The notes under the pieces were generated by a model, which was given only the letters and a program-made list of their open reading frames with translations, had not been told where the DNA came from and did no database searches. Source: Schoenoplectus triqueter (taxonomy: Eukaryota; Streptophyta; Magnoliopsida; Poales; Cyperaceae). From it: 64,000 nucleotides of DNA. Each line of letters starts with the position of its first letter. The stretch's first letter is position 1. Below are positions 20,335-48,668 of the stretch, one piece after another. The stretch is taken from NCBI GenBank assembly GCA_964058805.1, contig CAXKVV010002169.1, positions 1 through 64,000 on the forward strand. Reading direction: 5' to 3'. The position numbers and the translations under genes are program-made.

Positions 20335-22074
20335 CCCGGAGCGGGGCCGATCGAGTAGTATCTATTGTAAATAAATAAGGAGGGAATAAGTGTTCGTTTA
20401 CACACACGTGCACGAAACACAAACCCATGTCTAACCTCCACTTTGCATAAAAATCCCAAAACCCTACTTGTGCATCTGTAAATAGAATGCATCCAAAAAT
20501 CCAAAACCACACAAACACATTTAGCCCTATAATAAAATAAAAATAGAATAAGGGAATACAACGCCAAAACCACGCGAGAATGTAAGGCGAGAGCTTTGGT
20601 GTTTGGGCTCACAATACAAATACCACTGGGTTTGTCCATTTGATACAGAATAAACACAAAAATGGGCAGGGTTTGCAGTTTGTCCCTCAAACTATCTGGT
20701 GCCCAGTGACGAAAGTTGCTCATATTGGTCGCCCGCGGCGCAAGCTAAGGGATAGGTCGAGCAAATTGGTGGCTAGTAAATAGTCGCTTCCGAGGGCATA
20801 TAAATAAATAACTCTCGTATTATTAGTAGCATGTATCACTAATAACCAAAAAAAAAATCTGCCTTCTTCTAATAAAATAAATGGATATATGTGTAAAACA
20901 ATAAAAACCTATTTTCCTACTCATAAAAAAAATGATAATAAAAAAAATATAATAAAATCTTTTCAATAAGGGGTTGCCACCTTTGTCCCCGACACTACGA
21001 GTGTTATACAAAGCCAGGTTGGGTGCATTCATCCGTAAAAGCACCACACGCCCGAAGAAATGGTGTGTTATAATCCCACGACATATCATGGAGGGGTCAG
21101 ACCAAGGGTTTACGCTTGTACCCGACATTTCATGTTAAACAAAGCGGCTCGCTTAAAGAAGTGACTCAGGTCATGGAGAGCGGACCTACCCGATGAAAGC
21201 CTGTCTCGTAGGGATGCGTGATGGATGTTTGAGGGTAGCCGAAATATAAAAAGCCAGGTTGGGTACATTCATCCGCAAAAGTACCACACGCCCAAGGAGG
21301 TGATCTGTTTCTAATCCCAAAATAGATCATGGAGGGGTCAGACTAAGGGTTTATGCTTTTGCCCGACATTCAGTGTCAAATAAAGTAATTCGCTTAAAGA
21401 AGTGACTCAGGTCATGGAGAGCGGACCTACCCGATGAAAGCCTGTCTCGCAGGGATGCGTGATGGATGTTTGAGGGTAGTACCCCCACAAAACAAATTGA
21501 GTGGAGATGAGTGAACGTGAGTTTCCACTTTAGCACGCAACAGTGCACAAATGAGGGGAGAGTGGGTGAGCTTCCACAAATAAATGTCAACTAAATATAC
21601 AAGGAGCATCCACAAAATGGTGTTATCAATTGCATCCATAATTCAATTGATACTGGTAAGTTTATCCATCAGTAATAAAGGGATAAACGGGTTTATTCTG
21701 TACCCGGCCTAGAGGTCAATACAGACAGGTTCGGTATCCGTAAAATACCACGGTTACTTGAGTTTTGTATTGCCATAAAGAGAAATGATGTATAGAATCA
21801 ATGTAATAGGATGTTGTAAGATTTTCCTTTTATTATGATTAGACGCTGCGAAAGAATGAAGCAGTTGTAATAGGGCGCTTTTGCAAATAAGATTGGAGGT
21901 GCACAACATGAATGCATAAAATATTTCCTCGCGCTGCAGAGGAAGCGATTAAGGGATAATAATAAAAGCAAGCATCATCCACAACAAGAGATCAAAATGA
22001 TAAATGTCAAGGCATCCTATATCAAGTATAACAAAAGAAAAGGAGAAAGAAAAAAAAATGAATGAAAGTGCAGT
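20335..22074. other. spacer between convergent gag-pol and antisense gene of A
   Basis: This 1.7-kb spacer separates the ends of two tail-to-tail genes. It holds a two-copy 240-bp tandem repeat and no supported coding frame. Both transcripts should terminate here, but I see no single clear polyadenylation signal to call. Confidence 0.7.
21011..21478. repeat. 240-bp tandem repeat, two copies
   Basis: aagccaggttgggt begins at 21011 and again at 21251. Both copies run through ggtcatggagagcggacc to tgatggatgtttgagggta. Element B has the same pair at 38439-38905 in reverse. Its position between convergent genes suggests a role in 3' end formation or template stability (inference). Confidence 0.8.
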
Positions 22075-25000
22075 CTATGGGCCCAAAAAGCGGGACTCCA
22101 ACTCTAATAGCACAGTGCTAATAGTCTCTAAATGAGTATGGAGGGAGTGCCTATCCTCCTCCGAGGCTGCCTCGAAGTCCAGGAACTGAGAGAAAGCACT
22201 ATCTCGGGCGCTCGAATGAATCTGCAACTCCGGGAGACGTCCCGCCAAATGTCGAGAGAAGCCCTCTACTGATAATCTGTTGTCCTCTAGCTCCTGCACG
22301 AGCAGTCGAGCGGGCCCACCACTAACTCCCATGGAGCGGAGAGTGGCACAAGAAGAGAGCCGCTGAAGATAATGGAGTCGAGCAGCCTCCAAATGCCTGC
22401 GTAGCTCATGAATCTCCAACTCATGCTGGTATACGAGAGAGCTCGCATCCTGGTAAGCCCTGAGCAGCTCCTCACACCTCCTGAAAATGAAAGTGCTCTC
22501 GAGACGAGGTGCAATGAGTAGAGATGGCGCGATGGTATCCCGCATCAGCCTATACCAATCGAAAGAGAAGCCACTGGGCAGAGAGTCCAGGATCTCGAAA
22601 TCTAGCGGATAGCCTCCGAAGAAGGTATCCCGGAGTGCATCCGCCAGCGCGGCCAAGGCGAGCTGCACATCCCTCGATGAAACATCTGCAAGTAAAATAA
22701 ATGGGTTAGACAAATTGTTATAACCAAAGAAGAAATAGAAGGAAGAGAAGATCTAACCTATCGCCTCGTCGCCTGAGACAGGCGGGACTGAGTCGGGGAT
22801 AGGGATGTCGGTCGCCTCAGGAGGACCCATAGGTGTACCAGACCCGGCTACAAAATAAAATGAAGAAGCATAAGTACATGAAAAGTAAAAATACGGGCAA
22901 ATGATAAAGGAAATATAAGATACCAGGAGAAGCATGAGGCTCGGCGAGACCCTCGCTAGCCGGAAACCCCGTCTCTGGGCTGTGGAATAGCTGCTCCACC
23001 AGCCAGCTCTCATCCAACTCTGAGTCGTAATCGACTGCAACCCGCTCAGTCGAGACTCTGCTATCTGTGGCCATGAGAGGCTGCCCGTCGGGAGATGAAG
23101 AAGCATGAGATGGCCCTCCCTCAATCAATAATGGCTCGTCGCCTGCGGGCTCGACAGCCAATGGACTCCCCTGCTCTAAAGAAGCCTCCTCTGGTCGTAC
23201 AAGAGTGAGCACTGGCCCCAGAACCACATCAAAGGAGTCGCCATCCCCGGTAGGCACCAATAAGATCGACGGTGAGGCAGGACCGTCGTAAAAGAAAGAC
23301 TCCGAGCGATGAGGAGACGCCATGTCATCGGCCTCAGGGTCTGTAAAATCTACATGTAAGAATGAAAATACTAGTGCATGCTGACAACTAGGTATTAAAT
23401 GAAGCACACGAACCTGCGACGGCAAGGTCGGTGCAAAACCCTGGAATAGCAGTGCTCGCAAGCGCCGATATATCTGCTATGATGTCGTCTCGGGTAGCCT
23501 CCACAGGAGATATCCCATGAACTGAAAAATAAACCCTAATCAGAGGTGTAAATGAAGTGCGCCCGAATAAGGATAGGCGAGTCAGTAAAGAAAATCACCC
23601 GGAGTGGGAGAAGAAAAAGAAGATGGAGAAGACGGCTGAGAGGCGCCGTCTCGATCCCTCCCCATAGTAGCTGGAGCCGGTGGCTCGACATGGGGCTGAG
23701 AATGAACATCAACTACTCGTGGACGAGGGACCGAGAACCCAGGCTCCGCGTGATCATACTCATAAGCCAGCTCTGAATCAAAAGAGAATTGGTCGAAATG
23801 AGATGAAGCTTATCGAAAAGAAATAACCTAAAGGGATGATGAAGTGTACCTGTGAGAATGGTCCTAACAGGAGCATGAGAAAACCGGCTGTCTAAACCCT
23901 GAAAGTCGACAGGCTCCGCAGCAATGGCCGGGAAAGGGCTGCGATCACGCGAAACGGTGCCATCTAATAGAGGCTGACCATCTCGCGGACATGTACTCCG
24001 GACGACCACCGGAGGAGTATACGACTGGTAAGAGCGAATGGTCTCATAATACCACTGCTGATAACGCCTCGTGAAGGTGGAAGTCCTAGAGGTGGATACC
24101 ATCTGATAGCGAGTGCCCGTGCCTAGTCGGAAGAGGTGAGTGTAGCACCATCCGATACCCTCCAAATCGGCCGCCAGTGATACAGGGCGGAGAAGAGATG
24201 CTGGAATATCCTGATCCAAGCCAAACTGATGTGCGCATCGATGTGGCGAATAGGGCTCGATGAACATATGATCGCCCAATCTGAGAGGAAGAAAGCCCTG
24301 ACGAATACTGATCAGGTACTCCAAATCGATAGGCCTGGCTCGAATGCTAGAAGAGTCAGAAGAGGGGACCCTGCTGTCAATCACCATCCTGTCAGCAACC
24401 CTAGCTGCCCCACGGGCCACTGATCTGTCTCGAGAGAAGCGCAGATGGTCTCGGCTCCTAAAGAATCTATAACGAGCAGCCTCCGGAGTCAATGAAGCCG
24501 GCTGCACCCCAGCTAAGTCACTCAATGAAGGTAGACGATCTCGTAGCGTGACCGCCATGCCGGGATCATATGAGCCAGACCAATGCAAATGGAGCCATCC
24601 GCTAATCAGATGCCACGGGATCAGCTCCTGGCACTGTGAAGGACCCCGAGATGAAGTCAGACCGCGGAGGCACCTATAAATGTTGGCCAGTACAGGCACG
24701 ACCAAAGAAATCCTGTCGCCACGCGCGATCAGGCTCGCCATAATGAACACCGAAGGCCGAATGGTGTATGCGGGAGAGCTAGGTAATAAGAAATAGCAAA
24801 TCCACCAAGAAATGAAAGCTGTCAAATAAGTCTCCCGATCCACGACATGTGAACACAGGGTATCCTGAGATGGGATAGGGCCGTCGTGATGAATCTCGAG
24901 CCGACCTGTACCAAATGGATCTCTGGTGGAAGCCAGACCCGTAGGGCGAGTATGGACCCGATCGGTGAAATAGGCGATCCAATGTCTGAACGGAACTCCG

Positions 25001-25637
25001 GGATGCCCCCTCCGTAAATGATGATAAATCTCATAAATCCTATGCAAAGAAGGCGGGAATCGAGTGAAGTCTCCCGAGTCAGCGGGCGAGACCATGAACT
25101 CATCATAGAAATGGCCGAAGATCGGCAGCCCGGTCAACTGCTGTATCTCTAGGAGGGTCGGAGTCAACTCCCGATCGTCAATGAACAAAGTGTTGGTGGA
25201 ATAGTTCCACCTCTCACAAAAGGCCCGTAGCCAGGGTGTGTCGATATGATAATGAAACATCGACAAGAAAACCGAGTCATATATCCCGGCTCGCCTGAGC
25301 AGAGTCCCCTCCCGCATGAGCACATACCGGGTCCACTCTAGCTGATATCCATGGCACTCCAAGGGAGTGATGAAGGGAGCAGTAGTCCATCTGTGAGCCT
25401 CCCCGTCGATAATCTCCTTGCCCAGGAGATGTGTCAAAGGAGCCGTAGAGGCAACGCCTAGAGGCTGAAGGGGCATGATGTCATGAGGCTGATCATCCCT
25501 GAAGAACAAACCGCCGCCTCGCGGGTAGACAGGAGTCGCTCGGATGGCTGAGACGAGAGAAGTCCAATCGCTAGGATCCTCGTAAAAGGAATGATAATGA
25601 CTCAAGGGGCGACGCGGAATGGCGTCATGAGATGAAA
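22075..25637 (-). CDS. antisense plant mobile domain (PMD) gene of element A, spliced, exons 2-7
   Basis: Predicted exons on the minus strand: 25637-23850, 23772-23599, 23521-23414, 23340-22924, 22847-22758 and 22685-22075, with exon 1 at 57054-56898 in the 3' LTR. All introns are GT-AG and phase 1; the five short ones are 72-77 nt. Joined length is 3,345 nt, 1,114 residues. Without splicing, the frame stops at 23713. Exon 2 encodes a PMD: WNYSTNTLFI, LTGLPIFG, a hydrophobic SWWICYFLLP stretch and GWLHLHWSG. Exons 3-6 are Pro/Ser/acid-rich linkers. Exon 7 is helical with a likely coiled coil (HELEIHELRRHLEAARL). Exon lengths equal those in B while intron lengths drift, as expected under selection on the spliced protein. 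The exon 2 frame has no ATG in its first 130 codons or so, so the start probably comes from exon 1. Element B now lies in intron 1. The function is unknown; host PMD proteins act in silencing. Confidence 0.75.
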
Positions 25638-26991: not shown

Positions 26992-28658
26992 TGTGCGACC
27001 CTTTTTCGCGCGCCGCCGCACCGCCGCCGGGCGATGGGTTCTGCGGAAGAAGGACACGGAGATCCCTCCCGAGCGTGCATCTGCTGGGTGTCGGCCGATT
27101 CTGCCGTTTAGAGATATTTGGATGCACATTCAGGGGGTTTTTTAGTGATTGTGAGTTCTTGTAGATTCCGGTGGGCGCAAGCCCCCACCGTTAATTACCC
27201 TGGGCTACGAACCTCGAGGCACCTCTGGATCTTTGAAAGAGAGAAGCAAATAGTATAGTTAAAGGATGGTCAAGTGGTCGTCTAATTTCATAAAAGGGGT
27301 CTACGGAAGATGAACCTACAAACAGATCGGTTCAATCTATGGAAGACAAACCTACAAACAGATCGGTTTTGTCTTATGGGGACGAACCTACAAACAGATC
27401 GGTTCAGTCCATGCCACCTCGAGATGTAACCTTACCAACAGACCAGGTTAATCTCTTCATAGGGGGCTTGAGGTGAGTCTACATACAGACCGACTCGACC
27501 TCTGTTGATCTAGAAGATAAACCTACAAACAGACCGGTTCAATCTTAACTAGTCAACAACCAATCACACAAAATACAACTCGAAGCACTGAGCCGGTTGA
27601 TCTTGAGGTTGGTGAATCAGGAGAAGGGTGGATATGGCCCACGTATTTCTTCTCACTGATCTTCTAGATCATGAATTCGTAGCACTAAGCCGATTCATAA
27701 ACCTAGGAAACACAATTGCACACAATGTCAAACATGAAGCGCTGGGCCAGTTCAATATTGAGGTATGTGTTAGTGAAGGAACCTACCTACAGAACGGTTC
27801 ACATTCACTGTTTTGTGGATGAATCTACCAACAGACCGATTCAATCTCACATTCTCGGGAAATGAGCCAGGAGATAAACTCATCGACGGACGAGTTCAGT
27901 TTTGCCAGCTCAAATGGTCATGAATTACTTGTTCATGACACCGAGTCATTAAGATGTCACTTTGCTCGGACATCGTAATGTTCTTCTTCTTCAAAGTCGA
28001 CATATCTCTCCATGTTGATATCGTAGCTTTGGTCAATCTTCAACGAACGTCAAGATGTTCTTGTCTCGACTAATCATTCTACATATTGCATTACTTGTGC
28101 AAAATTACGATGTAGCCCTACACCCCTTGTGTGAGCGTATTCAATCATGAGTTACTTGCTCATGGCAGCGAGTCATTAGGATGTCACCTCTCTAGGACAT
28201 CGTAATGTTCTTCTTCTTCAGAGTTAACGTATATCTTCATGTTAACGTCGCAACTCTGATTATTCTTCATCAAATGTCAAGATGTTCCTGTCTCGACATA
28301 TTCCTTCATGTCGCTATTGAAGCCTTAATCTTCTCATGTCAAGATGTTCTTGTCTCAACGCATCTTCTTCATGTTGCTATCAAAGCCTTAATCATCCTAC
28401 GTCAAGATGTTCTTGTCTCAACGTATCTTATTATTATTCATCAAATGTCAAGATGTTCTTATCTCGACATATCTTCTCATATTGCTATTAAATTCTTAAT
28501 CATCCTATGTCAAGATGTTCTTGTCTTGACTAATCGTTCTAAATGTTGTGCAAATATCCTCATGTGACTCTACACTCCTTGTGTGAGCATTTTTATTCAT
28601 CTCAAAATACACAAAGCCCATATAATATCTCTTATTATTATCTCTATTATAAAGATGC

Positions 28659-28705
<47 letters not shown>

Positions 28706-31700
28706 TTATTATTATTATTATTTTTGAATGCTATTTATCTATGTAGAAAACTATTTACAAAAATAATAGAAAATGGGTAGCTATTAACTTAGAACTTTAT
28801 TTATATTTTTGGGATTTTTATAATAGCTAAAATAGTAGAATTTTATTTTTATTATTTCTAAACTCTATTTATTCTAAAGAAAATCACTTACTAAAATAAC
28901 AGAAAATAAAATGGCTATGATTTTTTTTATTTGTATTTTTAAAATGTTTATAATAGCTAAAGTAATAGAATTTTATTATTATATTCTATCATATTTAAAA
29001 TACTATTCATTATGTAAAAAATCATTTACAAAATTAAAAGGGTGATTAGGCTATACTATTTTACCATTATTATTTTTTATTATTATTATTTTTTTATTTT
29101 TATTTTTAATATCTATAATAGCTAAAAAGAAATCATTATTATTCATTATGTCTACTTTTATTATTTCTATTTACTATATAAGATTTTTTATTATTACTAT
29201 TATTAGTTGAAAAATAGCTATAAGAGATGAAATTTATTATACTTTTATTACAACTATTATTTTTATTACATTTTATTCATCAAAAGTATATTTTTGTATA
29301 TTTGTAAAGAAATACAAAGGAAATACAATTCATATCATAAAACTATATTATTATTCTTTATTATAAAAGAAAATGTATAGTAGTATATTTTTGTATATAT
29401 TTTTTATTATTATTATTTTTATTCTTTTTACAGAGAAAATATCAATATAATATCTATTATTATTATTTATTTATTATTATCATATATTTTTTTTTAAAGA
29501 ATATAGCTAATCTCATTATTTATTATGACATATTATTATCATCATTATTATTTCATAGAAAATCACTTGGAAAATCACTAAAATATATCTACTTATTATT
29601 TATGATTTTTATTTGTATTTTTGGAATTTTTATAGTATTTAACATGACAAGTCAAATCTAGGTCAACTATATCAATATATGTAATGCATTTTGCTTTTAA
29701 AATGTTTTATTATGATTATATTTCTAAAACTGGAATATTATTGTATAGAAAAATAGTATGAAAAATAAGAAAATTTTAGAAACAAATTTGAGTCAATTTG
29801 GAGTTCAATAGCATTTTCAAATCATTTATTTACTTCATATTATTACTATTCTGTTATTATTTAATTAATGGGCCTAATCTGGGCCGCCAGATCTGCTCTG
29901 AGATTGGTGCGCATCTTTCTAACTCTCTTCTTCACTTGGGCCGCCAGATTAGTTTGAGATAAGTGTTTAATGGATCTACGGCCCAGATTAATGCAGAGTT
30001 ATTATTCAAATGTTTAAACATATCTGGGCCACTGGATTTAATTAAGATGCGTGTTTAATATGTATAAGGCCCAGATCTTTTCTCGTTTTAAATTTTCGAA
30101 CTCTTGCCAAATCTCGTTCATCAGATATTCTTCAAGATCGGCGGACACTTCAAAAATCGTGCAGACGGAATCCCTTCAGTCTCTGACTCCCCGATGTGTC
30201 AAGATCCGTGCTAGGTGGCGTTCCCGGTCGCCGGAACTTCCTTCCTCCGATCAGACCAGCACATTGGTATCGTCTTAGTGCATAGAATCATTCTATATTA
30301 TCCGATCAAAGATCTATACGGTGGTTGATACTTATACGACACTATCAGTTACTGTGCTAGTAAGAACCGGTATCAAGATCATTTCTTCATCAAATTCACC
30401 GAATTCAATTGAGATTCTTGACAATTATACAACTATTGAGCATCGCCTTGACATGTACATATGATCTGGGATGAGTATGAAGCTTCCTGGATGCTATTAA
30501 CCGGGTTGGAACAACTGTGCATGGCGGGTATGCGGTACCGATTGGTACCGACTGCGATCCTTTCTCAATTCGAGATGTTTTTATATTCAATTGATGACTC
30601 TCAGGCCTAAAGGCTCACCCAGACATTGCTAGGGCCAGTGGCTCGCTGAGATAGAGATCAATTGAAGCCAATTCACCTCTGTAATTTCATCAGTATATTG
30701 ATTTGTGCTAGAATCAGTGCATTTCTTCGAATTTGCAAGAATTGGTTCATCTATTCAATCAGAATCATACAACTAGGATACTCAAAGGATAACAAGTCAT
30801 TATCTTTCATCAATTGGGCAAATATAAACAAAGAAATCGGTTTAAAAGAAAAAATCATAAAAGAACAGATGCAATACTATTGAATTATAAGAAAATCTTT
30901 ATATCTGTGACTAATCCAGGCCTAAAGGCTCACCAATCACTTTGTGATTGGGCCAGTGGCTCACTGGATTTAGTCATTTATTATTGATTAAGATTTATAT
31001 GGAAAAAGAAAATGAAAGAATGTGGCAAAACAACAAGAATCAAGAAAGAAATGAATTGATTATCCAATTAACTATGCAAAACATTCTAAACTCAGCTACA
31101 AAGGATGAAATGCAAAGAAAAGCGCCAATGAAGCTAATGGACATATGAACAATTACCTCTAAGCTTGAATAGTAATCCGAATCAATTAGCTTCTGTGTAA
31201 CCTCTACAATTGGCGTTTAACAGTAAATGGATACTCTCAATTGCTCTGATAATGGATGTTTATGGATGTCTGTATGTCTCTCTCTTACTGTTGCTGCCAA
31301 TTTTGGTTTATATAGGCTAATTAGGCTGGTTAATCACAATTGTGATTGGTTAATTGCCTTCCACTCGGATTGCCACCTTGGGTTCATCTTCACCCTCCAT
31401 TCTAATTCAATCAACGGTCCAGATAGGTTTGTGTTTGTTGCTGCAGCCGTATAACCGTTTCTGTTAGGATTTTTGACTGTGCCGCGATTCTTTGACTCCA
31501 CACTCTCAATTACCCATGTAATCTCAACTGACAAGCGGGCCCAAGGTCATTACTCACTATTTAAACACTCCATGATCACTCTGACTGCTGTTTCATTCAT
31601 CCATCAACTCCAATTTCACTGAGCCCATTTCTGCCCCGATTTCTTCTTTTGATCAATTAGCATCTCATACTTCAAATTGCCTCATCAATACACCTCCATT

Positions 31701-34164
31701 GGCGTCGCCTTGCCCTAAAGGATCGACCTTGCCGTGCAATTTGATCTCCAGAGTGTTAATTCATCTCTTCTTATAAACTCAATTCTCGGTAATAAACCGA
31801 TTTCATCCTTTGTTCATCCCTTTTCATCTGTTGATTCAATAGCACCTATAATTCAGTCGCCTAATCATCACTATCCATCAGATCATCTTCGATCATGGTG
31901 AGGCGTCAAGGGAAGCGGAAGGCGCAAGCTTCGGTTGAATCGGGCAATGGCGAGAAGAAGAGGGAGGGAGAAGGCCCTTCCGCTAGCTTGGATGCGCACG
32001 GCGCGCGTGATCCAAAGCGTAGAGGAGAAGAGGAGCAGCGGCATAGAGCTCGTGCACCAGGTTTATCCTTTTCTTATTCTTCTTTTAAATTTAGCTGCGT
32101 TGAATTGGATGAATAGGCTGTACAGACTTGGTTCATGGATTAACTATGCGCCTCTATCTGCCCCCCTGACTGTTGGGCCCCATTGTCAGATGTAAATGGG
32201 CTTAGGAGTAGCCATGTCAGCAATTTAGGATTAATTGTGCTAATGTGGCATGTTTCTATTGGCTGCTTCATCTGATCTTGCAATGTTTACATTAATCACC
32301 TTGTTTAATTTTGCTGACTGTGCATTAACCTACGAGTGACACATGGCACATAATAGGGCCCACATGTATAACCTTGGTCCAATGGTTCACTGCCATGTGT
32401 CTAATAGTTGTAATCTGAATGGTGAGGTGGCTGGTCAGAAGGGTGCCATGTGGCACAGCTGAGTTGAGATGGCTTAATGTAGCTGTGCCATGTGGCTTGA
32501 GGTTAGGTGAGGTGGCCTTGTGGTGTGATGCCATGTGGCACAGAGAGTATGTAGTGGACCTGTTATGCAGAGCCATGTGGCACTGGGGTGGTGAGGTGGC
32601 CCACTGGCTGTCTGCCACGTGGCACTAAGGTGGGGTCCACCTGTCAGTGACTCATACCTGGGTGGGGCCCACTTGCTGACATGGCCCAATGAGAGGCTGC
32701 CACGTGGCACACCCTCTCTCTTCGATTATTTTATGCCTCCTGTGTTTCTTGTACCCAGTTTGTACCCAGAGCTGTTGTTATCCCCAACTTGCACCCAGAT
32801 CTGCCTTGATCAAATCTCAGCCTCTGATTAATCCATTTAATCTGCCTTTATTTTCCTTGAATTTATTCTGATAGCTCCACTTATCCAAAAATTATGAAAT
32901 TTTCACCAAAAATCCCTAAATTCATGATGATCATCCCTGTAATTTTTAATTCCATTTTTACCCCTGCCTTTCTGAATTAAAAATTCTTTTATCAAATAAA
33001 CCCTGTTATCTCTTCTGATTAATCCCTGGTTTCATCTGTAGCTCAATGTCTCTGCCAATTATCTCTCTCTTGCAGAAACCACCCTAACTAAATACCAATT
33101 AGACTTATATTGATATTCATTAGGGCTTGATTTGATCAAATGCTGACTACTTATCAGCAATTAATACAAATCTAGACTTGATCAGGTGGTTGCTCCCAGC
33201 TTTGGCACCTGATCAGTCTTGTGAAATTGACTTTCAATCCCTTAACATGAGGGTGACTTGGTCAAATAACTGACTACTTATCAGTAATTGACACAAATCA
33301 AAGCATGGTTAGGTGGTTGCTCGCAGCTTTGGCACCAGGTCAGCCTTGAAAGCAAAATCACATTTGGAATTTCTTATAACTAGTTGCATCAAAATGCTAG
33401 CTTGGCATTGACATCATTTCATGTAGCATAGGGATTATACTGCTTCAGCTCCTTCTTAGGGTTAGCTCCAAAGGCAGATTTTTAGGGTTCAATTCTGACT
33501 CCCTCAATAGGTCACTGAGGTGTGGGGTCCACCTGTCAGTGAAAATGGTCACATGGGTGACTCATCAGATAGGCTGTGCTATTAGACTCATCTGCAAGGG
33601 ACTGCCAAGTGGGTCCCACTTGTCAGAGAAAATATAATCAAATGGCTGACCCATCAGGAGATTTTCTCTCTCCTAAATCTCCCGAGGGTCAGCCACTTCA
33701 AATGAGCAGAAAGTGGCTGGGTATTTATATCCTTGCTCCATATTTAGGATTTCCTTGTGGGATTAATGCTTAACCTCTGTTCCGGGTTAATTAGCTTTCT
33801 TTAGCAAAATAGGCTAGGTCCATGTCATCGGAGCTGCTCATAAGGGACTGCCGTGTGGGTCCCACTTGTCAGAAAAGATATAATCACATGGTGACACCCA
33901 AGAGGTCTCCTCTCTCCCTCGATCTTCTTGGGTGTCACTCATGCTGAGTGGATAGAGAATAGCGGGGTATTTATACTCTCCACTTTGCGCCCAGCATTCC
34001 ATTGTGGGACTAATGGATTTGTTCCGGGGTTAGGCAGCGACCTCTCCTGATTAGTGGGCCATCTTTCCACTGCTCTCTCTCTCTTCCCCCCTTTTCTTAT
34101 GATTTATCATCAATTTATTTCATTTATTCATCTATTCATCCTTGAAATTTTTCAAGGGTAAACA
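26992..34164 (-). repeat. 3' LTR of element B (7,173 bp)
   Basis: Equal in length to the 5' LTR at 48808-55980. Sub-features in plus coordinates: motif array CTACAAACAG 27305-27560, near-palindrome array 28030-28535, (TTA)n 28665-28710, A/T tract to about 29860, TGGGCC cluster 29875-30080, hairpins 30602-30650 and 30913-30970, divergent TATA boxes 31307-31565, antisense exon 31895-32060, G-box block 32330-32720, and duplicated hairpin/TATA modules 33540-34060. Short open frames within it are not conserved between A and B and are not called as genes. Confidence 0.95.
31307..31565. promoter_or_regulatory. divergent promoter in the 3' LTR of B
   Basis: The sense TATATAAA on the minus strand (31314-31307) and the antisense TATTTAAA on the plus strand (31558-31565) are 243 bp apart and face outwards. 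The core between them is conserved with A (GACTGTGCCG, GTATAACCGTTTCTGTTA and GTTGCTGCAGC on the plus strand). In this 3' LTR the plus-strand box is positioned to transcribe the antisense PMD gene, whose first ATG lies about 330 nt downstream. Confidence 0.55.
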
Positions 34165-37100
34165 AAGAGCCACCCACCAAGACGAGTCTTGAATGCTCGA
34201 AAGGCTTGTCTTGGTGCATTATTCCTTATTATTCATCATTTCATTTCTCATGACGTCTTCTCTTCTTCGGGTATTGTAGTTTTATCTCATGACGCCATTC
34301 CGCGTCGCCCCTTGAGTCATTATCATTCTTTCTACGAGGATCCTAGCGATTGGACTCCTCTCATCTCAGCCATCCGAGCGACTCCTGTCTACCCGCGAGG
34401 CGGCGGTTTATTCTTCAGGGATGATCAGCCTCATGACATCATACCCCTTCAGCCCTTAGGCGTTGCTTCTACAGCTCCTTTGACACATCTCCTGGGCAAG
34501 GAGATTATCGACGGGGAGGCTCACAGGTGGACTACTGCCCCCTTCATCACTCCCTTAGAGTGCCATGGATATCAGCTAGAGTGGACCCGGTATGTGCTCA
34601 TGCGGGAGGGGACTCTGCTTAGGCGAGCCGGGATATATGACTCGGTTTTCTTGTCGATGTTTCATTATCATATCGACACACCCTGGCTACGGGCCTTTTG
34701 TGAGCGGTGGAACTATTCCACCAACACTCTGTTCATTGACGATCGGGAGCTGACTCCGACCCTCCTGGAGATACAGCAGTTGACCGGGCTGCCGATCTTC
34801 GGCCATTTCTATGACGAGTTCGTGGTCTCACCCGCTGACTCGGGAGACTTCACTCGATTTCCGCCTTCTTTACAGAGGACTTATGAGATTTATTATCATC
34901 TACGGAGGGGGTATCCCGGAGTTCCGTTCAGACATTGGATCGCCTATTTCACCGATCGGGTCCACACTCGCCCTACGGGTCTGGCTTCCACCAGGGATCC
35001 ATTTGGTACAGGTCGGCTCGAGATCCATCACGACGGCCCTATCCCATCTCAGGATACCCTGTGTTCACATGATGTGGATCGGGAGACTTATTTGACAGCT
35101 TTCATCTCTTGGTGGATTTGCTATTTCTTGTTGCCTAGCTCTCCCGCATACACCATTCGGCCTTCGGTGTTCATTATGGCGAGCCTGATCGCGCGTGGCG
35201 ACAGGATTTCTTTGGCCGTGCCTGTACTGGCCAACATTTATAGGTGCCTTCGCGGTCTGACTTCATCTCGCAGTCCTTCACAGTGCCAGGAGCTGATCCC
35301 GTGGCATCTGATTAGCGGATGGCTCCATTTGCATTGGTCTGGCTCATATGATCCCGGCATGGCGGTCACGCTACGAGATCGTCTACCCATATTGAGTGAC
35401 TTAGCTGGGGTGCAGCCAGCTTCATTGACTCCGGAGGCTGCCCGTTATAGATTCTTCAGGAGTCGAGACCACCTGCGCTTCTCTCGAGACAGATCAGTGG
35501 CCCGTGGGGTAGCTAGGGTTGCTGACAGGATGGTGACTGACAGCAGGGTCCCCTCTTCTGACTCTTCTAGCATTCGAGCCAGGCCTATCGACTTGGAGTA
35601 CCTGATCAGCATTCGTCAGGGCTTTCTTCCTCTCAGATTGGGCGATTATATGTTCATCGAGCCCTATTCGCCACATCGATGCGCACATCAGTTTAGCTTG
35701 GATCAGGATATTCCAGCGCCTCTTTTCCGCCCTATATCTTTGGCGGCTGATTTGGAGGGTATCGGATGGTGCTACACTCACCTCTTCCGACTAGGCACGG
35801 GCACTTGCTATCAGATGGTATCCACCTCTAGGACTTCCACCTTCACGAGGCGTTATCAGCAGTGGTATTATGAGACCATTCGCTCTTATCAGTCATATAC
35901 CCCTCCGGTGGTCGTCCGGAGTACATGTCCGCGAGATGGCCAGCCTCTATTAGATGGCACCGTTTCGCGTGATCGCAGCCCTTTCCCGGCCATTGCTGCA
36001 GAGCCTGTCGACTTTCAGGGTTTAGACAGCCGGTTTTCTCATGTTCCTGTTAGGACCATTCTCACAGGTACATTTCATCATCCCTTTAGGTTATTTCTTT
36101 TCGATAATCTTCATCTCATTTCGACCAATTCTCTTTTGATTCAGAGCTGGCTTATGAGTATGATCACGCGGAGCCCGGGTTCTCGGTCCCTCATCCACGA
36201 GTAGTCGGCGTTCATTCTCAGCCACACGTCGAGCCACCGGCCCCAGCTACCATGGAGAGAGATCGAGATGGTGTCTTTCAGCCGTCTTCTCTATCTTCTT
36301 TTCCTTCTCCCACTCCGGGTGATTTTCTTTATTGACTTCGCCTATCCTTATTCGGGCGCACTTCATTTACATCTCTGATTAGGGTTTGTTTTTCAGCTCG
36401 TGGGACATCTCCTGTGGAGGCTACCCGAGACGACATCATAGCAGATCTATCGGCGCCTGCGAACACTGCTATTCCAGGGTTTTGCACCGACCTTGCCGTT
36501 ACAGGTTCGTGTGCTTCATTTAATACCTAGTTGCCAGCATGCACTAGTATATTCTTACATGTAGATTTTACAGGCCCTGAGGCCGATGACATGGCATCTC
36601 CTCACCGTTCGGAGTCTTTCTTTCACGACGGCCCTGCTTCACCGTCGATCTTATTGGTGCCTACCGGGGATGGTGACTCCTTTGATGTGGTTCTGGGGCC
36701 AGTGCTCACTCTTGCACGACCAGAGGAGGCTTCTTTAGAGCAGGGGAGTCCATTGGCTGTCGAGCCCGCAGGCGACGAGCCATTACTGATAGAGGGAGGA
36801 CCATCTCATGCTTCTTCATCTCCCGACGGGCAGCCTCTCATGGCCACAGATGGCAGAGTCTCGACTGAGCGGGTTGCAGTCGATTATGACTCGGAGTTGG
36901 ATGAGAGTTGGTTGGTGGAGCAGCTATTCCACAGCCCAGAGACGGAGGTTCCAGTTAGCGAGGGTCTCGCCGAGCCTCATGCTTCTTCCGGTACCTTATA
37001 TTTCCTTTATCATTTGCCCGCATTTCACTCTTCCATGTATTCATACTTTTATTTTATTTTGTAGCCGGGTCTAGTGCACCTGCAGGTCCTCCTGAGGCGA

Positions 37101-37843
37101 CTGATACCCCTGCCCCCGATTCAGTCCCGCCGGTCTCAGGCGACGAGGCGATAGGTTAGATCTTCTCTTCCCTCTATTTCTTTTTTTTTTTTTGTTATAA
37201 CAATTTGTCTAACCCATTTATTTTACTTGCAGATGTTTCATCGAGGGATGTGCAGCTCGCCTTGGCCGCGCTGGCGGATGCACTCCGGGATACCTTCTTC
37301 GGAGGCTATCCGCTGGATTTCGAGATCCTGGATTCTCTACCCAGTGGTTTCTCTTTTGACTGGTATGGGCTGATGCGGGATACCATCGCGCCAGCTCTAC
37401 TCATTGCACCTCGTCTCGAGAGCATTTTCATTTCCAGGAGGTGTGAGGAGCTGCTCAGGGCTTACCAGGATGCGAGCTTTTTCGTATATCAGCACGAGTT
37501 AGAGATTCATGAGCTGCGCAGGCATTTGGAGGCTGCTCGACTCCATTATCTTCAGCGGCTCTCTTCTTGTGCCACTCTCCGCTCTATGGGAGTCAGTGGT
37601 GGGCCCGCTCGACTGCTCGTGCAGGAGCTAGAGGACCACAGATCATCAGTAGAGGGCTTCTCTCGACATTTGGCGGGACGTCTCCCGGAGTTGCAGATTC
37701 ATTCGAGCGCCCGAGATAGTGCCTTCGCTCAGTTCTTGGACTTCGAGGCAGCTTCGGAGGAGGATAGGCACTCCCTCCATACTCATTTAGAGACTATTAG
37801 CACTGTGCTATTAGAGTTGGAGTCCCGCTTTTTGGGCCTATAG
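31895..37843 (+). CDS. antisense plant mobile domain (PMD) gene of element B, seven-exon model
   Basis: Predicted exons: 31895-32060, 34280-36067, 36145-36318, 36397-36504, 36574-36990, 37065-37154 and 37233-37843; 3,354 nt, 1,117 residues. All six introns are GT-AG and phase 1, so every internal exon is a multiple of three. Intron 1 is 2,219 nt and crosses the LTR boundary; the others are 69-78 nt. Exon 1 begins with an ATG in the LTR and encodes a basic peptide with DPKRRGE, a possible nuclear signal. Exon 2 holds the PMD (about residues 165-410; W199 of RWNYSTNTL, then LTGLPIFG and SWWICYFLLP). Exons 3-6 are disordered Pro/Ser/acidic linkers. Exon 7 is helical with a predicted coiled coil and ends FLGL. 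No stop interrupts the joined frame, whereas unspliced reading stops at 36204. The exon 2-7 model is strong; the exon 1 join rests on phase and conservation only. The function is unknown. Confidence 0.78.
34165..34279 (-). other. polypurine-like tract and intron 1 end of B
   Basis: AAGAGCCACCCACC directly right of the LTR is the complement of the polypurine-like GGTGGGTGGCTCTT. The plus strand ends in TCGGGTATTGTAG at 34279, the proposed acceptor of antisense intron 1. The open frame extends leftwards to the LTR edge, where TAA stops it. Confidence 0.5.
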
Positions 37844-39578
37844 ACTGCACTTTCATTTTTTCTTTCTCCTTTTCTTTTGCTATACTTGATATAGGATGCC
37901 TTGACATTTATCATTTGATCTCTTGTTGTGGATGATGCTTGCCTCTATTATTATCCCTTCATCGCTTCCTCTGCAGCGCGAGGAAAATATTTCATTCATT
38001 CACACTGTGCACCTCCAATCTTATTTGCAAAAGCGCTCTATTACAACTGCTTCATTCTTTCGCAGCGTCTAAACATAATAAAAGGAAAATCTTATAACAT
38101 CCTATTACATTCGTTCTCTACATCATTTCTCTTTATTTATGGCAATACAAAACTCAAGTAACCGTGGTATTTTACGGATACCGAACCTGTCTGTATTGAC
38201 CTCTAGGCCGGGTACAGAATAAACCCGTTTATCCCTTTATTACTGATGGATAAACTTACCAGTATCAATTGAATTATGGATGCAATTGATAACACCATTT
38301 TGTGGATGCTCCTTGTATATTTAATTGACATTTATTTGTGGAAGCTCACCCACTCTCCCCTCATTTGTGCACCGTTGCGTGCGGAAGTGGAAACTCACGT
38401 TCTCTCATCTCCACTCAATTTGTTTTGTAGGGGTACTACCCTCAAACATCCATCACGCATCCCTGCGAGACAGGCTTTCATCGGGTAGGTCCGCTCTCCA
38501 TGACCTGAGTCACTTCTTTAAGCGAATTACTTTATTTGACATTGAATGTCGGGCAAAAGCGTAAACCCTTAGTCTGACCCCTCCATGATCTATTTTGGGA
38601 TTAGAAACAGATCACCTCCTTGGGCGCGTGGTACTTTTGCGGATGAATGTACCCAACCTAGTTTTTTATATTTTAGCTACCCTCAAACATCCATCACGCA
38701 TCCCTGCGAGACAGGCTTTCATCGGGTAGGTCCGCTCTCCATGACCTGCGTCACTTCTTTAAGCGAGCCGCTTTGTTTAACATGGAATGTCGGGTACAAG
38801 CGTAAACCCTTAATCTGACCCCTCCATGATATGTCGTGGGATTATGACACACCATTTCTTCGGGCGTGTGGTGCTTTTACGGATGAATGCACCCAACCTG
38901 GCTTTGTATAACACTCATGGTGTCGGGGACAAAGGTGGCAACCCCTTATTGAAAAGATTTTATTATTATATTTTTTTTTATTATCATTTTTTATGAGTAG
39001 GAAAATAGGTTTTTATTGTTTTACATATATATTCTTTATTTTATTAGAAGAAGGCAGATTTTTGGTTATTAGTGATACATGTTACTAATAATACGAGAGT
39101 TATTTATTTATATGCCCTCAGAAGCGACTATTTACTAGCCACCAATTTGCTCGACCTATCTCTTGGCTTGCGCCGCGAGCGACCAATATGAGCAACTTTC
39201 GTCATTGGGCAACAGATGGTTTGAGGGACAAACTGCAAACCCTGCCCATTTTTGTGTTTATTCTGTATTAAATGGACAAACCCAGTGGTATTTGTATTGT
39301 GAGCCCAAACACCAAAGCTCTCGCCTTACATTCTCGCGCGGTTTTGGCGTTGAATTCTCTTATTCTATATTTTTTATTTTTATAGGGCTAAATGTGTTTG
39401 TGTGGTTTTGGATTTTTGGATGCATTCTATTTACAGATGCACAAGTAGGGTTTTGGGATTTTTATGCAAAAGTGGAGGTCAGACATGGGTTTGTGTTTCG
39501 TGCACGTGTGTGTAAACGAACACTTATTCCCTCCTTATTTATTTACAATATATACTACTCGATTGGCCCCGCTCCGGG
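37844..39578. other. spacer between convergent antisense gene and gag-pol of B
   Basis: Counterpart of 20335-22074. It holds the 240-bp tandem repeat (38439-38905) and an AT-rich stretch near 38950-39060. Short open frames here are not supported as genes. Confidence 0.7.
38439..38905. repeat. 240-bp tandem repeat of element B, two copies
   Basis: taccctcaaacatccatcac begins at 38439 and again at 38679. Each copy continues to a caacct-containing end (acccaacctagt and acccaacctggc). Homologous to 21011-21478 in A. Confidence 0.8.
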
Positions 39579-42500
39579 CTATGTGTAGTACTTCTTCAAA
39601 TATCGCCCATTAATCGGTGGCATGGGCCTTTCACCTTCATGGTCTATGAGTTGGTACGCGCCGCCCCCGTATACCTTCTCAATTACATATGGCCCTTCCC
39701 AGTTCGGGGAGAATTTTGGGCCGATGTGCCGGCCAATGATCGGCCTCTTAAGGACAAGAACAAGCTCCCCTTGTTGAAATGCCCTGACTCGCGCCATTTT
39801 ATCATATGCCCTTGCCATTTTTGCCTGATATATTTCAAGGTTCTGCTGGGCTATCAATCTCTTCTCGTCCATGGCGTCCAACTCGTCCAGTCTAAGTTGT
39901 TGGCATTCGTCCATGGTCATATCATTTTGCATAGCCACCCGCAATGACGGTAGTTCCACCTCAAGAGGGAGGACGGCTTCAACTCCAAAAGCCAGAGAAT
40001 ACGGGGTAGCTTGCGTAGGCGTTCGGTACGTAGTCCGATAAGCCCATAATGCCTCCTGTAGACGATTATCCCAGTCTCGTTGGTTGCCGTCTACGGTCTT
40101 CTTCATGATATTTATTAGAGTTTTGTTAAAGGCTTCGGCCAGGCCATTGGCTCTCGGGTTGTAAATGGACGAGAATCTCCAATCGATATTAAATTGCTCC
40201 GCCAGGGCATAGACTTTAGAGCTCTTGAAGGCTGTTCCATTATCAGATATTATTCGTTGTGGGGTACCGAATCGGTAAAGGATGTGCGTCTTAAAGAACT
40301 TAACCACATCGGATGCTTTAACTTCTTTAAGCGGGACGGCTTCAGCCCATTTTGTAAAGTAATCTGTCGCCGCCAGGATGAACCGGTGACCTCTCGACGT
40401 AGGAGGGTCTATGGGCCCCACTATATCTGTGCCCCACATATTAAATGGCCAGGATGCTACCGTGGGGTGCAACGGGTTTGGCGCTTGATGTATAAAAGGG
40501 CCATGTATCTGGCACATGCGGCACTTCCTTGCGTGCTCTTCACAATCAGCCACCATTGTGGGCCAATAATATCCCATTCGCTTAATCTTCAACTTCATTT
40601 TTGGCCCAGACTGATGTGCTCCGCATAGCCCGGAATGAACTTCTTTCATAACCTGCTTGGCTTCAGGCCCTGATACATATCTTAGCCACAACTGATCATA
40701 AGACCTACGGTATAGCGTATTGCCCACATATGCATACCGTAGTACCCGCTTTCTTAGTTGATCAGCTATCCTTTTATCCTTGGGGAGGGTGCCATGCCGG
40801 AAATATTCGATGAATGGTTGTCTCCAATCATCGTCTTCTTCAGTTATCATTGCTTCTTGGCATTCCATCTTTTCTGGTCCAGTGCCTTCATTATCCACAT
40901 TGTCTGTCGTCTGACACAATGAGAATGGCCTTCTATTGCGGACAATGATGTGGATTTCCGGCTCTGTTGGTTCACCCAGCTCCTTGGCGAGTTTGGCCAA
41001 CGCATCTGCTTCACCATTCACAGCCCTCGTGACCTTCTCGATGGACACGTACGGGATTTTCTTCATTAATTCCATGGCCTTCTGGTGATATTGTATTAGT
41101 TTCGGCTTTAAGACCTTGTATTCGCCGATTATTTGATTTATTATCAGCTGTGAATCCCCAAAGATACGCACGGCCTTGATTTTCAGCTCCAGTGATAGCT
41201 CTAGTCCGGCGATGAGTGCCTCATACTCTGCTTCATTATTTGTACATGGTTCAGTTAAAGCCAGAGAATGTCGTATTATCCCGCCTTCCGGGGTTACGAA
41301 GACTAGTCCTGCGCCAGCTCGCACAGTTGGGACTCCCGGGCCCGCGATCGGCTTGATTGAAGAAGCACCATCAAAGTACATCTCCCATATAGGACTTCCT
41401 TCTTCAACATGTAGAGATTCTTCATCAGGGAAGTCACATTTTAATGGGGAGTCATCTTGGATCGGGTGTGCAGCCAGGAAATCTGCTAGCGCCTGCCCCT
41501 TTATCGCCTTTTGCGGTGTATAGGTGATGTCGAACTCGGTAAGAATAATAGCCCACTTGGCCAGCCTCCCCGTTAGCATTGGCCGAGTCATCAGATATTT
41601 GAGAGGGTCCACCTTGGATATTAATATGATTTTGTGGGCTAGCATGTAATGCCTCAATTTCTTCACCGCGAAGATTAGGGCTAAACAATACTTCTCAATC
41701 GGTGAATACCCGTGTTCTGCCCCTACCATCATGCGACTTAAGTAATACAGCGCATTTTGATTACCATCCTGGTTTTCTTGTGCCAACAAAGCTCCCAAGG
41801 ATCCATCTAGGGCGGTCGTGTATAGAATGAGCTCCTTCCCGGGTATGGGCGCCGCCAATACTGGAGGGTTGAGTAGATATGCCTTGATTTCTTCAAAGGC
41901 TCGCTGGCACTCGCCATCCCATTTAAACGGGATATTCTTCTTAGTCAGCCGGGTGAAGGGTTGGATTTTACCCGATAGGTTGGCTATGAACCGCCTGATG
42001 TACGCCAATTGCCCTTGCAAAGATCGCAATTGTTTTAAATTCTTTGGCGGGGATAGTTCGGTTATTGCTTTGATCTTGCCTGGGTCTATCTCAATTCCCC
42101 TGTGGCGTACCACAAACCCCAGAAATTTACCAGATGATACCATGAATGCGCATTTCAACGGGTTTAGTTTGAGCGCATGTTCTCTCAGGCGGTTGAAAAC
42201 GACCTCTAGATATTGGAGGTGTTCTTCATATGACATGGCTTTGATGACTAGGTCGTCCACATAGCATTCTACTATTTTGTGGATCAGATCGTCGAATATT
42301 TTCGTCATCGCCCGCTGGTAGGTGGCTCCTGCATTTTTGAGCCCAAACGGCATGACTTTGTAACAATATATGCCAATCGGCGTGCGGAATGCCGTATGCC
42401 TCTCATCTTCTGGCGCCATCTTAATCTGATTATAGCCCGCGTAACCGTCCATGAAGGAGAAGACTTCATAGGAGGATGTGTGGTCGATTATGATTTCGGT

Positions 42501-45500
42501 TACTGGGAGCGGGAAATCATCCTTAGGGCACGCCTTGTTTAGGTCCCGAAAGTCTACGCAAATGCGGATTTGCCCATTTTTCTTTTTAACCGGGACAATG
42601 CTAGCCACCCATTCTGGCGTCTCTTCTTCCCGTATAAAGCCGGCGTCGATGAGTTTCTTTGTCTCCTCCACGACCTTCTCTTCGAGTTCTATTCTCATTC
42701 GCCTCGGCGCTTGTTTAATCGGCTTGAAGGTTGGATCAATTTTTAAGTAATGGACCGCCACGTTGGGATCTAATCCAGGCATCTCTTTATAACTCCAAGC
42801 GAAGCAGTCCATGTAGCTTTTAAGGAATATCTTCAACCTGTCAGCCACCTCTTTTGGTAACGACGCGCTTATGAAAGTTGGTCGTGGGTCTTCTTCTGTC
42901 CCCAAATTAATTTCAGCTAACTCATCGACCGTATTAGGCTCCTTTTCTAGCTGCTTTAAAGCATTTTTCAGGACCGGGGTATTGTCCTCTTCTGTTTCAT
43001 TATCTGGCATCTCAACAGAAGTCATGCAACAACTTTCTTCTATACGGTACTTGTTGAGAGACCCTTCAAAACATGCTGCGTCATCGCAGTCATACCCTAA
43101 TCCCCGGGTGTATTTTATTTTACCATCCAGGCCCAGGACTTTATTCTGGCCGCCATTCTAGAGTTCATCAAAGCGCTTGGCCTCGGCCTTGGATATGTCT
43201 CTCAGACATTTCGCCCTTTTTGCCAATTTGTATAGCTCCTTTCCAAAGGGATGAGATGCAGTGTCATCGCTCGTTGCATTCTCCGATTCTTGTTCTATCA
43301 CCCACTTTTTCCAAGTGTTGTGATCAGGGTTCTTCAGAGACTGGGTTGAATCGCTCTGATAGAAAATTATAGCCTTGTGGATGATAGTCTTCCCTTTGAG
43401 ACGCTCTACCTTTGCCGGCACAACAAAGGTCTTTAGGGTTTGGATGTGGTTCACCTCTCTTGGTATGAGGTCTTTGAAATGCCTTTCAGGAACCACAGTA
43501 ATCTCTAGCGCTGCCATCTCTTCTTCTATTTCAATATTCATGACTGAGTTGGAGCGGTAGATTTCCTTGATCGGCTTACGTCTCGCCACCTTAGGTTTAC
43601 TAGGTACGGGAGTGTGCGAGATCGTATAAGCCACCCCTTTGCCCTTGTTATTCAGGTTATGCGGAGCTGGGTCTTGTTGAAAGCTCTTCGGGAGTTGGAT
43701 CGTCCCGTTTCTGTGCCCTTCTTCTATTAGGTCTTTGAATACCCAGCATTCTTCAATTGTATGGCCCAATATGCGATGATAAGGGCAGAATTCGCCTTCG
43801 CCGGCTCTTTCTATGTCGGCGGGTCTCTTACAGACGGGAAGTGTTAATCCGTTCTTTAGGGCTTGTTCAAATATCCGAGCTGTCTTATTTCTCAGAAAAG
43901 AGTATGGTTTACTCTTCTTGACCTTGAGAGTTTGCATGACGGTCGGTTGCTTAGCTTTCGTTTCTTCCCCCTTTGATTCATCTACTATTACAATTACCCG
44001 TTTGCCGCCATCGGGTGCTTGTTTTTCGGGGGTCCCGGAACGGGGTTCGCTCGTCACTTCTTTGAGTAGCTCGGAGTTATAGATCGCGGTTTGCAGGTTT
44101 TCGATCATTATCATGATTTCATTGTGTTGCACCTTGATATCCTGCATCACTTCCCATTGTTCAGACACCTCTCTTCTATTATTTTCAACCTGGTGTCTTA
44201 TTTCATCGATCGCATTCCAGACGCGACCTTCGAAATTTTCCCGCCATGAGCGTTCTTCATTTATAGGCCTTGGCCTAACCGGGTTATCCCTTCCGCTACC
44301 GGGTCCCGTGTTGATCATATATGACTCCTCACTTTCATTATCTGTTTCAGGCCCTTTATATGGCTTCTTGAGGATGTGATAGATGATTTCTTCGTCAGAC
44401 TCCTCTTCCCAGGGTTGACGATCATGGCCAGACTCTTCTCCCGAGGTGGTATCGCCCGAGTCGTTGGAATCTTCGGAGTCTTCTCCCGAAGTTGCCTCTA
44501 TGATCTGAATTTGAGGGGTGTTGGCAGGCTTAAAATTGAAAATGACCTCCTCTTCAGAATCACTTGCATTTATTTCGCTCGGTTTTATTTGGGCCTTATA
44601 CGCAGCCACCTGTTTGAAGCGGAAGGTTGCTTCTTCACCCGACTTTCTTCCGGGTCTTCGGGCTTGAGCACCTCGGGGTTTGATATTAAATTTGACCTCT
44701 TCTTCTTCTCCAGATGAGGTATCAAATTTAGGGCCTTTATTGAAGGGTTTCTGACCTACTTTTGTCATTGGCCGGCTCGGCGCCACAGCGGATTTAGGCA
44801 GAAAATACTGGGCGTCATTGAACTTAATCTCATGCACCCCGAATGGTTTGACATCTCCGTCAATTCTCTTTTGCTTACCATTCTCGATATATTTCAGGCA
44901 CTGGTGCAGAGTAGAGGGTATGACCTGATTGCTGTGAAGCCACGGGCGACCCAGCAACGCCCGATAAGAGGTTTCAGCGTCAATGACATAGAATTTAGTA
45001 GGCGCTCTTAGGCTTCCGCATTGCAGGTTTAGGGTTATAGCTCCCAGGGCCTTTTGGGAGTTTTGATTGAAGCCATGAATAATCACCTTTTCATCAGATA
45101 GATTCTTCACATCTAAGGTGATGGTTTTCAGAGTTTTGAGCGGCATAATATTGATCGAAGACCCTGCGTCGACCAAGATGCGGCCAATCTTCTGCCCTCC
45201 GCAGTTTCCGGTGATGTATAGCGGGCGGTTGTGGTCAACGGTACCTATTAGGAGGTCGTCGTCTGTGAAATTTATACAGGCGGCCCGTTTGGCGGTGAAT
45301 AGGGCTTCTTGCATATTTTGCTCTATGAAGTATGACTTGTACTTCTCAGGATCTTGCAAGGCCTGAATTAGGACCTCCCTTAGGTCTTGTGACATCATCA
45401 ATGCGTCAAATATGCTTAATAGCGCTGGGATCTTACGCAGATGTGCCAACACATTATATTCTTCACCCGTCGACCGGGTCTTTTCTGGGTTCTTGCTTGG

Positions 45501-48500: not shown

Positions 48501-48668
48501 CTGAATAGAGATCTGGACGGTCGCGGGAGTAAAGGCGGCCACTGGAGCTGGGCCGTAGATGGTAAGTTCTTGCGGGATGGTCCCGAAGAACATAAAGAGC
48601 TTGCCTTCTGGGCTCTGTGCAGGTGTGACAGTGTAGGGAGCAAGGTTGAAGTTTCCAAAGAATGCCAT
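39579..48668 (-). pseudogene. gag-pol: gag-pol polyprotein of element B (Tat-type), one in-frame TAG
   Basis: From the ATG at 48668 to the stop at 39579 there are 3,030 codons, exactly as in A, with the same domain order: N-terminal extension, gag, zinc motif FCPYHRIIGHSIEDC, protease VDAGSS, acidic motifs, second zinc motif FCPYHRILGHTIEEC, RT (YVDD), RNase H, archaeal-type RNase H (YFDGASS, GDSQLI, NGEADALAKLA) and integrase (HHCC, DDE). A single TAG at 43160-43158 (codon 1837, TGG in A) separates gag-PR-zinc from RT-IN. The region where A carries its own stop is intact here. A downstream ATG at 43025 could start an RT-IN fragment of 1,148 residues, but this would need internal initiation. 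The start is chosen for agreement with A and for the TTTTGTTTTGCAG acceptor just upstream. Confidence 0.93.

Follow-up and report, generated by a model that had tools for sequence, protein, structure and literature searches.

A probable seven-exon antisense gene with a plant mobile domain in a Ty3/gypsy retrotransposon of Schoenoplectus triqueter

Exon structure of the antisense gene

The DNA analyzed here (the window) comprises 64,000 nucleotides from Schoenoplectus triqueter (Cyperaceae; assembly GCA_964058805.1, contig CAXKVV010002169.1, positions 1 to 64,000 of the forward strand). It contains element B, a Ty3/gypsy retrotransposon of 28,989 bp on the minus strand (26992-55980), which is flanked by a 5-bp target duplication (GGATG) and bounded by long terminal repeats (LTRs) of 7,173 bp each, 99.86% identical to one another: the 3' LTR at 26992-34164 and the 5' LTR at 48808-55980. 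On the plus strand, between the pol gene of element B and its 3' LTR, lies an antisense gene that encodes a plant mobile domain (PMD) and that, judging from its comparison across the genome, is likely to be an accessory gene of seven exons, started in the LTR and maintained by selection.

The core of the gene is a plus-strand frame that runs from 34162 to 36204, where it meets the stop given in the preliminary description of this DNA. Five GT-AG introns at 36068-36144 (77 nt), 36319-36396 (78 nt), 36505-36573 (69 nt), 36991-37064 (74 nt), and 37155-37232 (78 nt) can be removed to open the frame to a stop at 37843. The spliced frame and the five introns reported in that description are confirmed, coordinates included, and it was also right that all five introns are in phase 1 and that the internal exons are all multiples of three: exon 2 (36145-36318, 174 nt), exon 3 (36397-36504, 108 nt), exon 4 (36574-36990, 417 nt), and exon 5 (37065-37154, 90 nt). 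Exon 1 (34280-36067) holds the PMD, with a match to profile PF10536 (E = 8.9e-26; 91.3 bits against a cut-off of 34.9; profile positions 1-346 of 347) over residues 157-569 of the frame 34162-36204, that is, positions 34630-35868. Exon 6, including the stop codon (37233-37843), encodes a conserved C-terminal region. Retention of any one intron breaks the frame: introns 1 and 4 shift it, and introns 2, 3, 4, and 5 place a stop in it. T content is 39-55% in the introns versus 13-28% in the exons, leaving out the long first intron described next (33%).

The range given in the preliminary description began at 31895, and this position is the ATG of an additional exon within the 3' LTR of element B. 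Exon 0 (31895-32060, plus strand) has 55 codons rich in lysine and arginine and ends in a phase-1 donor, CAG-GT, that fits an acceptor AG at 34279; the intervening intron 0 (32061-34279, 2219 nt) would span the border between the LTR and the internal region at 34164/34165. A TATAAA (31772-31777) 123 nt 5' of the exon 0 ATG is a candidate promoter element, and an AATAAA 3' of the stop codon (38077-38082, with another at 38218), noted as a pattern match, is a candidate polyadenylation signal.

Conservation across genomic copies

A search of the genome with exon 1 as query gave 281 candidate places, of which 65 were scored; 52 of these 65 lacked an internal stop. We aligned 22 rows, namely 20 copies fetched from among the best exon 1 matches together with element B and a second, similar element of the window, element A; the fifth best match (L005), which lies at a contig end, was left out. 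Two copies (L017 and L018) are identical, so that there are 21 distinct rows. The GT and AG of all five short introns, ten dinucleotides in total, are preserved in all 22 copies, as is the intron 0 acceptor AG at 34279. Intron 1 is always 77 nt long, and introns 2-5 vary in length between copies (77, 78, or 80 nt; 69, 73, or 75 nt; 74-77 nt; and 64, 72, or 78 nt, respectively). The 376 intron nucleotides hold 15 distinct gap intervals, 12 of which are not multiples of three, versus a single gap interval in the 3188 nt of exons 1-6, an in-frame one of 24 nt in exon 4, the other five exons being gap-free; a rough Fisher test of this contrast, with bases treated as independent, gives p = 2.5e-14. 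One copy (L025) has a single premature stop in the joined frame, which is open in the other 21.

Over all pairs of the 22 copies, the joined frame has a ratio of nonsynonymous to synonymous divergence (dN/dS) of 0.14, with values of 0.094, 0.33, 0.44, 0.20, 0.46, and 0.088 for exons 1 to 6. The control frames give 1.14 and 1.63 (shifted forward) and 1.18, 0.23, and 2.26 (the three reverse frames). The low reverse value is the expected shadow, because the third positions of that frame mirror those of the antisense gene, although it leaves some room for selection on a sense frame there. Codons ahead of the first methionine are constrained in both exon 1 (105 codons) and exon 6 (46 codons). An excess of divergence at third positions is not clear in introns 1, 2, and 4 and is slight in intron 5, over few sites. 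Divergence in the introns overall (0.062) is not above that at exon third positions (0.092); the case for splicing rests on the gaps, the splice sites, and the codon pattern. On these grounds, we regard the five short introns as nearly certainly real and the spliced reading frame as one that is kept by purifying selection. Between elements A and B, both the antisense gene (dN 0.026, dS 0.126) and pol (dN 0.014, dS 0.202) are constrained, pol more strongly.

A diverged copy (L041) extends the comparison. Its exon 1 aligns without gaps to the exon 1 of element B over 595 aa, at 63% identity, and the proportions of nonsynonymous and synonymous differences (pN and pS) are 0.235 and 0.756, the latter saturated, with the same donor, acceptor, and phase. 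Exon 4 of this copy shares 91% identity with the B exon, exons 5-6 match in 222 of 232 aligned residues, and exon 2 holds a stop. Given 63% identity in exon 1 and 91-96% in exons 4-6, the copy (L041:965-4527) seems to have arisen by recombination between two subfamilies; the switch between them is apparently around introns 1-3.

Constraint on exon 1 extends to codons that precede any methionine in it, the first being joined residue 163, and exon 0 at 31895, very basic and in the fitting phase, is very probably the first coding exon. A basic first exon with a phase-1 donor is found in 17 of the 20 fetched copies, in one of two kinds. Type I (MVRR...), the kind in element B, is present in element A and in 7 of the 20 copies; type II (MAPS...), which is unlike type I, is also basic and also followed by a phase-1 GT, is present in 10. 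GT follows exon 0 in 17 of 17 cases and is preceded by G in 16 and by A in one (L015). Type I is also kept in ten LTR loci (L031-L040) that were picked for their similarity; two further loci (L029 and L030) repeat the window's own LTRs and were left out of this comparison. The alignment of type I exons shows gaps of 3 or 9 nt. Over 18 distinct type I sequences, pN is 0.198 and pS 0.365, with about equal rates in the shifted frames, and divergence is 0.238 in the exon compared with 0.377 before it and 0.277 after it. Type II exons have pN 0.077 and pS 0.269 in eight of the ten copies (L014 and L028 left out), and in these eight, exon length is constant and the intron side is gapped.

The middle of the LTR (31300-32680 in the window, and its counterparts) is hypervariable among copies and holds one of the two types of exon 0; the rest of the LTR is alignable. 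Between elements A and B, no match of 150 nt at an E of 1e-20 was found between 32677 and 31500. By eye, a GGTA is seen about 100 nt 5' of the exon 0 ATG (31790-31890 in the window) in all 21 aligned type I sequences, many of which also have an AG closer to the ATG, a possible intron of the 5' untranslated region.

Product, relatives, and host element

The predicted joined product has 1117 aa, in which a basic N-terminus is followed by the PMD, a linker that changes rapidly, and a C-terminus that is conserved; the N-terminus may target the protein to the nucleus. The PF10536 profile matches the joined product at E = 5.2e-25, in line with the PMD assignment of the preliminary description. In a Pfam search of the joined product at E <= 1, the PMD was the only domain found, with no Transposase_28 (PF04195); sequence searches of solved structures gave no match, and exon 6 shows no similarity to the C-terminus of a Rhododendron PMD record.

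A protein search that scored the 8000 candidates sharing most words returned 23 relatives of exon 1 (18 found in JGI only, two in ENA only, and three in NCBI or UniRef), 13 of which were fetched. Nine of the fetched relatives (P0002-P0005, P0007, P0011, P0012, P0017, and P0018) continue beyond exon 1, and by eye all nine cease to match at intron 1, after a glycine whose next residue is Met, Ile, Thr, or Lys, at identities down to 38%. Codons for these four residues begin with A, which agrees with a G-GTA donor at the same place, the relatives being seen as protein. At the front, their homology starts near the acceptor at 34279, again by eye. Of the 18 JGI-only metagenome relatives, 17 share 50-96% of residues with the PMD exon and the remaining one (P0017) 38%. 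The Rhododendron protein record reaches 30% identity, and another PMD frame of this genome reaches 34%, within an alignment of only 64 aa. That frame (L042:334-1689) is open over 452 aa, scores 249.6 bits to PF10536, and is very unlike the PMD of the element. Judged from these pairwise identities, the domain fits a retroelement lineage such as the Gypsy-only clades PMD-A1 and PMD-A2. The preliminary description had inferred a spliced gene of host type: the splice sites, gaps, and dN/dS bear out a spliced, protein-coding antisense gene, whereas the host type is not supported, the PMD being far from that other frame. Among viral contigs, 59 pattern matches were found to relatives, none of which was confirmed.

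The pol of element B (39579-43157, minus strand) has profile matches to reverse transcriptase, RNase H, a second RNase H, and integrase, with RVT_3 at residues 612-724 lying between RT_RNaseH (439-542) and rve (904-1001). An additional RNase H (aRH), placed after the first one and before integrase, is described as a mark of angiosperm Tat elements (PMC6317226), and its presence here therefore fits the Tat clade, Ogre or Retand. The gag-protease frame (43158-48695, minus strand) adjoins pol in the same frame, with one stop codon between them and no spacer or intron of the Ogre kind between the gag-protease and reverse transcriptase frames. The PMD and giant LTRs recall Ogre, and the missing spacer recalls Retand; Transposase_28, which is usual in Retand (97% of clusters, according to PMC11963269), was not detected in the joined product. 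The element thus appears to belong to the Tat clade, as Ogre or Retand, with the Retand label itself not established.

Element B is inserted within the 3' LTR of element A, which lies on the opposite strand. In A, exons 1-6 of the antisense gene are at 22075-25637 (minus strand; limits by register with B, from the inverted repeats), and exon 0, at 56898-57054 (minus strand), is cut off from exon 1 by the insertion of B. Exon 0 is present a second time in the 5' LTR of B, at 53711 on the plus strand. The stop codon that splits the gag-pro/pol frame of B (43155-43157, minus strand) is a single one, and element A is open there, so B has a broken polyprotein alongside an intact antisense gene. Another insert in the 3' LTR of A, of about 3.4 kb, is flanked by the two copies of a 664-nt direct repeat that are 100% identical (58187-62958) and is probably one more small LTR element nested there. 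Between exon 6 and pol, both elements have a pair of tandem repeats of about 235 nt, 87% alike (38436-38910 in B and 21005-21479 in A).

Mechanism, alternatives, and known systems

In the mechanism that we propose, a transcript would start within the 3' LTR and run antisense to gag-pol; translation would begin in the short basic LTR exon, and the 2.2-kb border-crossing intron and the five introns of 69-78 nt would be removed, giving a protein of about 1117 aa with the layout described above. Introns in the sense strand of a retroelement tend to be lost in the next cycle. The element could keep its antisense introns because they are present in the genomic RNA as reverse complements, to which the spliceosome would be blind and which reverse transcription would copy. 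If exon 0 lies in U3, it would be copied from the 3' LTR of the parent into both LTRs, and the copy that adjoins the gene would then be the one that is inherited. The protein may serve the element as a nuclear regulator. The antisense protein of Grande is reported to be nuclear (PMC7264820), and the Arabidopsis PMD proteins MAIN and MAIL1 silence transposable elements, with PMDs captured by Mutator-like elements (MULEs) speculated to act against silencing (Ikeda et al., 2017, PMC5418596). Taken together, these reports make an anti-silencing or regulatory role our leading guess.

Several observations weigh against an LTR-started spliced gene. The donors of the introns differ from the strong GTAAG form, the candidate TATAAA is absent from most type I LTRs, and exon 0 was not found in two of the 20 copies (L010 and L016), even by a looser scan; one more (L027) is cut by its contig end. 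Type II exon 0, at a divergence of 0.122 versus 0.128 beside it, is not less divergent than its surroundings. A search for junction-spanning proteins among 5.8 billion sequences gave three matches, none of them spliced, since by eye they contain intron residues or internal deletions. The copies were taken from the top of the exon 1 ranking, which biases them to intact ones, although this bias is limited in that introns 2-5 and exons 3-6 lie outside the query, and because the copies share ancestry, their 22 rows do not count as independent trials. A genomic search for processed copies is neutral: with a query of 171 nt that spans the joined exons 4, 5, and 6, for which 40 of 142 candidates were scored, no listed match crossed a junction, a lack that is expected if the antisense mRNA rarely or never serves as a template.

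Exons 1, 4, and 6 each lie in an unspliced frame of at least 177 aa, and published surveys, in the parts cited here, count antisense open reading frames (ORFs) singly (PMC11963269, PMC6317226), both of which suit a reading of these three exons as separate antisense ORFs with their own starts and no splicing. We reject this reading as highly improbable, given that exons 1 and 6 are constrained ahead of any methionine and that frame-breaking gaps fall outside the exons; the splice dinucleotides, kept in all 22 copies, and a dN/dS below 0.5 for exons 2, 3, and 5 in the joined frame also speak against it. The introns and exons 1-6 could instead be right and the start lie elsewhere, in another upstream exon or at a non-ATG codon, with exon 0 not being the usual first exon. 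The copies in which exon 0 went unseen, its two unlike types, a constraint weaker than that on exon 1, and the unkept TATAAA would be accounted for in this way. We nevertheless consider it improbable, since 17 of 20 copies have a basic exon started by an ATG whose phase-1 GT fits the acceptor at 34279, and since type I exons differ by gaps of 3 or 9 nt and are less divergent than either flank.

Two other readings concern the role and the origin of the gene. A role mainly as RNA, for example as double-stranded RNA formed with the genomic RNA and feeding small interfering RNAs, with the protein secondary, has been suggested generally for antisense transcripts of such elements in a review (PMC7264820); a joined-frame dN/dS of 0.14, together with the saturated synonymous and conserved nonsynonymous sites of the diverged copy, points instead to selection on the protein and makes this role decidedly unlikely. 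A host PMD gene recently captured with its introns and passively carried would explain the gene-like exon structure, PMDs being found in ordinary plant genes. Purifying selection across copies, a start in the LTR, the low similarity to both the other PMD frame of this genome and the Rhododendron record, and the presence of the 63% identical subfamily, in the same genome, also in a retroelement-like repeat render such passive capture very improbable.

The layout of an LTR-started antisense gene has an established counterpart in human T-cell leukemia virus type 1 (HTLV-1), in which HBZ is a spliced antisense gene with a first exon in the LTR (PMC1459196). In both systems, the first exon in the 3' LTR gives the start codon, the main exon lies between pol and the 3' LTR, the intron between them is long (1400-1540 nt in HBZ and 2219 nt here), and the splice sites in the LTR are conserved. 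The HBZ transcript starts in the 3' LTR, the position that we propose here. Unlike our gene, with its PMD, six introns, and plant retrotransposon, known from sequence alone, HBZ encodes a bZIP protein in an animal retrovirus, has one intron, and has had its RNA shown. The resemblance is one of layout, with no evidence of common descent.

Among plant elements, gene23 of Grande, RIRE2, and ORF4 of Retand are likewise antisense between pol and the 3' LTR and maintained in many copies (PMC7264820, PMC11963269), and the Grande antisense protein is reported to have its own promoter (PMC7264820). As described in those sources, the Tat/Retand ORFs are single ones, mostly with Transposase_28, in elements with LTRs of 315-1194 bp, unlike the PMD, seven exons, and 7.2-kb LTR here. 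Such Tat-type antisense ORFs have been reported since the 1990s, without known function (PMC7264820). PMDs occur in 57% of Ogre elements (PMC6317226) and form the Gypsy-only clades PMD-A1 and PMD-A2 (Ikeda et al., 2017, PMC5418596); PMC9289625 also describes PMDs in Gypsy elements. As in these PMD-carrying elements, PF10536 lies here in an extra ORF of a Ty3/gypsy element. The passages cited describe no exon structure or LTR exon for them; PMC6317226 took as ORFs those frames that stay open for 250 codons or more. On PMD loci, Ikeda et al. (2017) ran Fgenesh, so spliced models may sit in their supplements. Ogre has an intron between gag-pro and the reverse transcriptase (cited in PMC6317226), which belongs to the sense transcript and to a spacer absent here, whereas the introns described here belong to the antisense gene; Ogre is thus a Tat plant element that uses splicing, as element B would in our model. 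The main text of the Retand survey (PMC11963269) contains neither the word "intron" nor PMD. In titles and the starts of abstracts, with supplements, preprints, and most subscription papers outside this scope, we recognized no case of a spliced antisense gene with an LTR start in an LTR retrotransposon. Within the literature covered, antisense ORFs in Tat elements, PMDs in Gypsy elements, and the Ogre intron are thus known, and the spliced, LTR-started antisense layout appears to be new.

The whole gene model is now supported by comparison, and its junctions, start site, and protein are directly testable; a 2020 review had called for a search for spliced antisense transcripts (PMC7264820). More tentatively, and with considerable doubt, we suggest that Tat elements may maintain a multi-intron antisense regulatory gene of HBZ-like layout, with an exchangeable basic first exon in the LTR (of at least two unlike types) and a PMD protein that would enter the nucleus to counter silencing by the host's MAIN and MAIL1 in trans, its orientation letting an intron-rich gene survive reverse transcription. 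If true, this would provide a plant counterpart in layout to HBZ of HTLV-1 and a route by which a retroelement could carry an intron-rich gene through its RNA stage. Surveys based on ORFs may split such genes and miss their LTR exons, and many of the antisense ORFs catalogued separately today may belong, as exons, to genes of this kind. If the PMD product does counter host silencing by PMD proteins, this would help to explain why the PMD is common to Gypsy elements and silencing factors.

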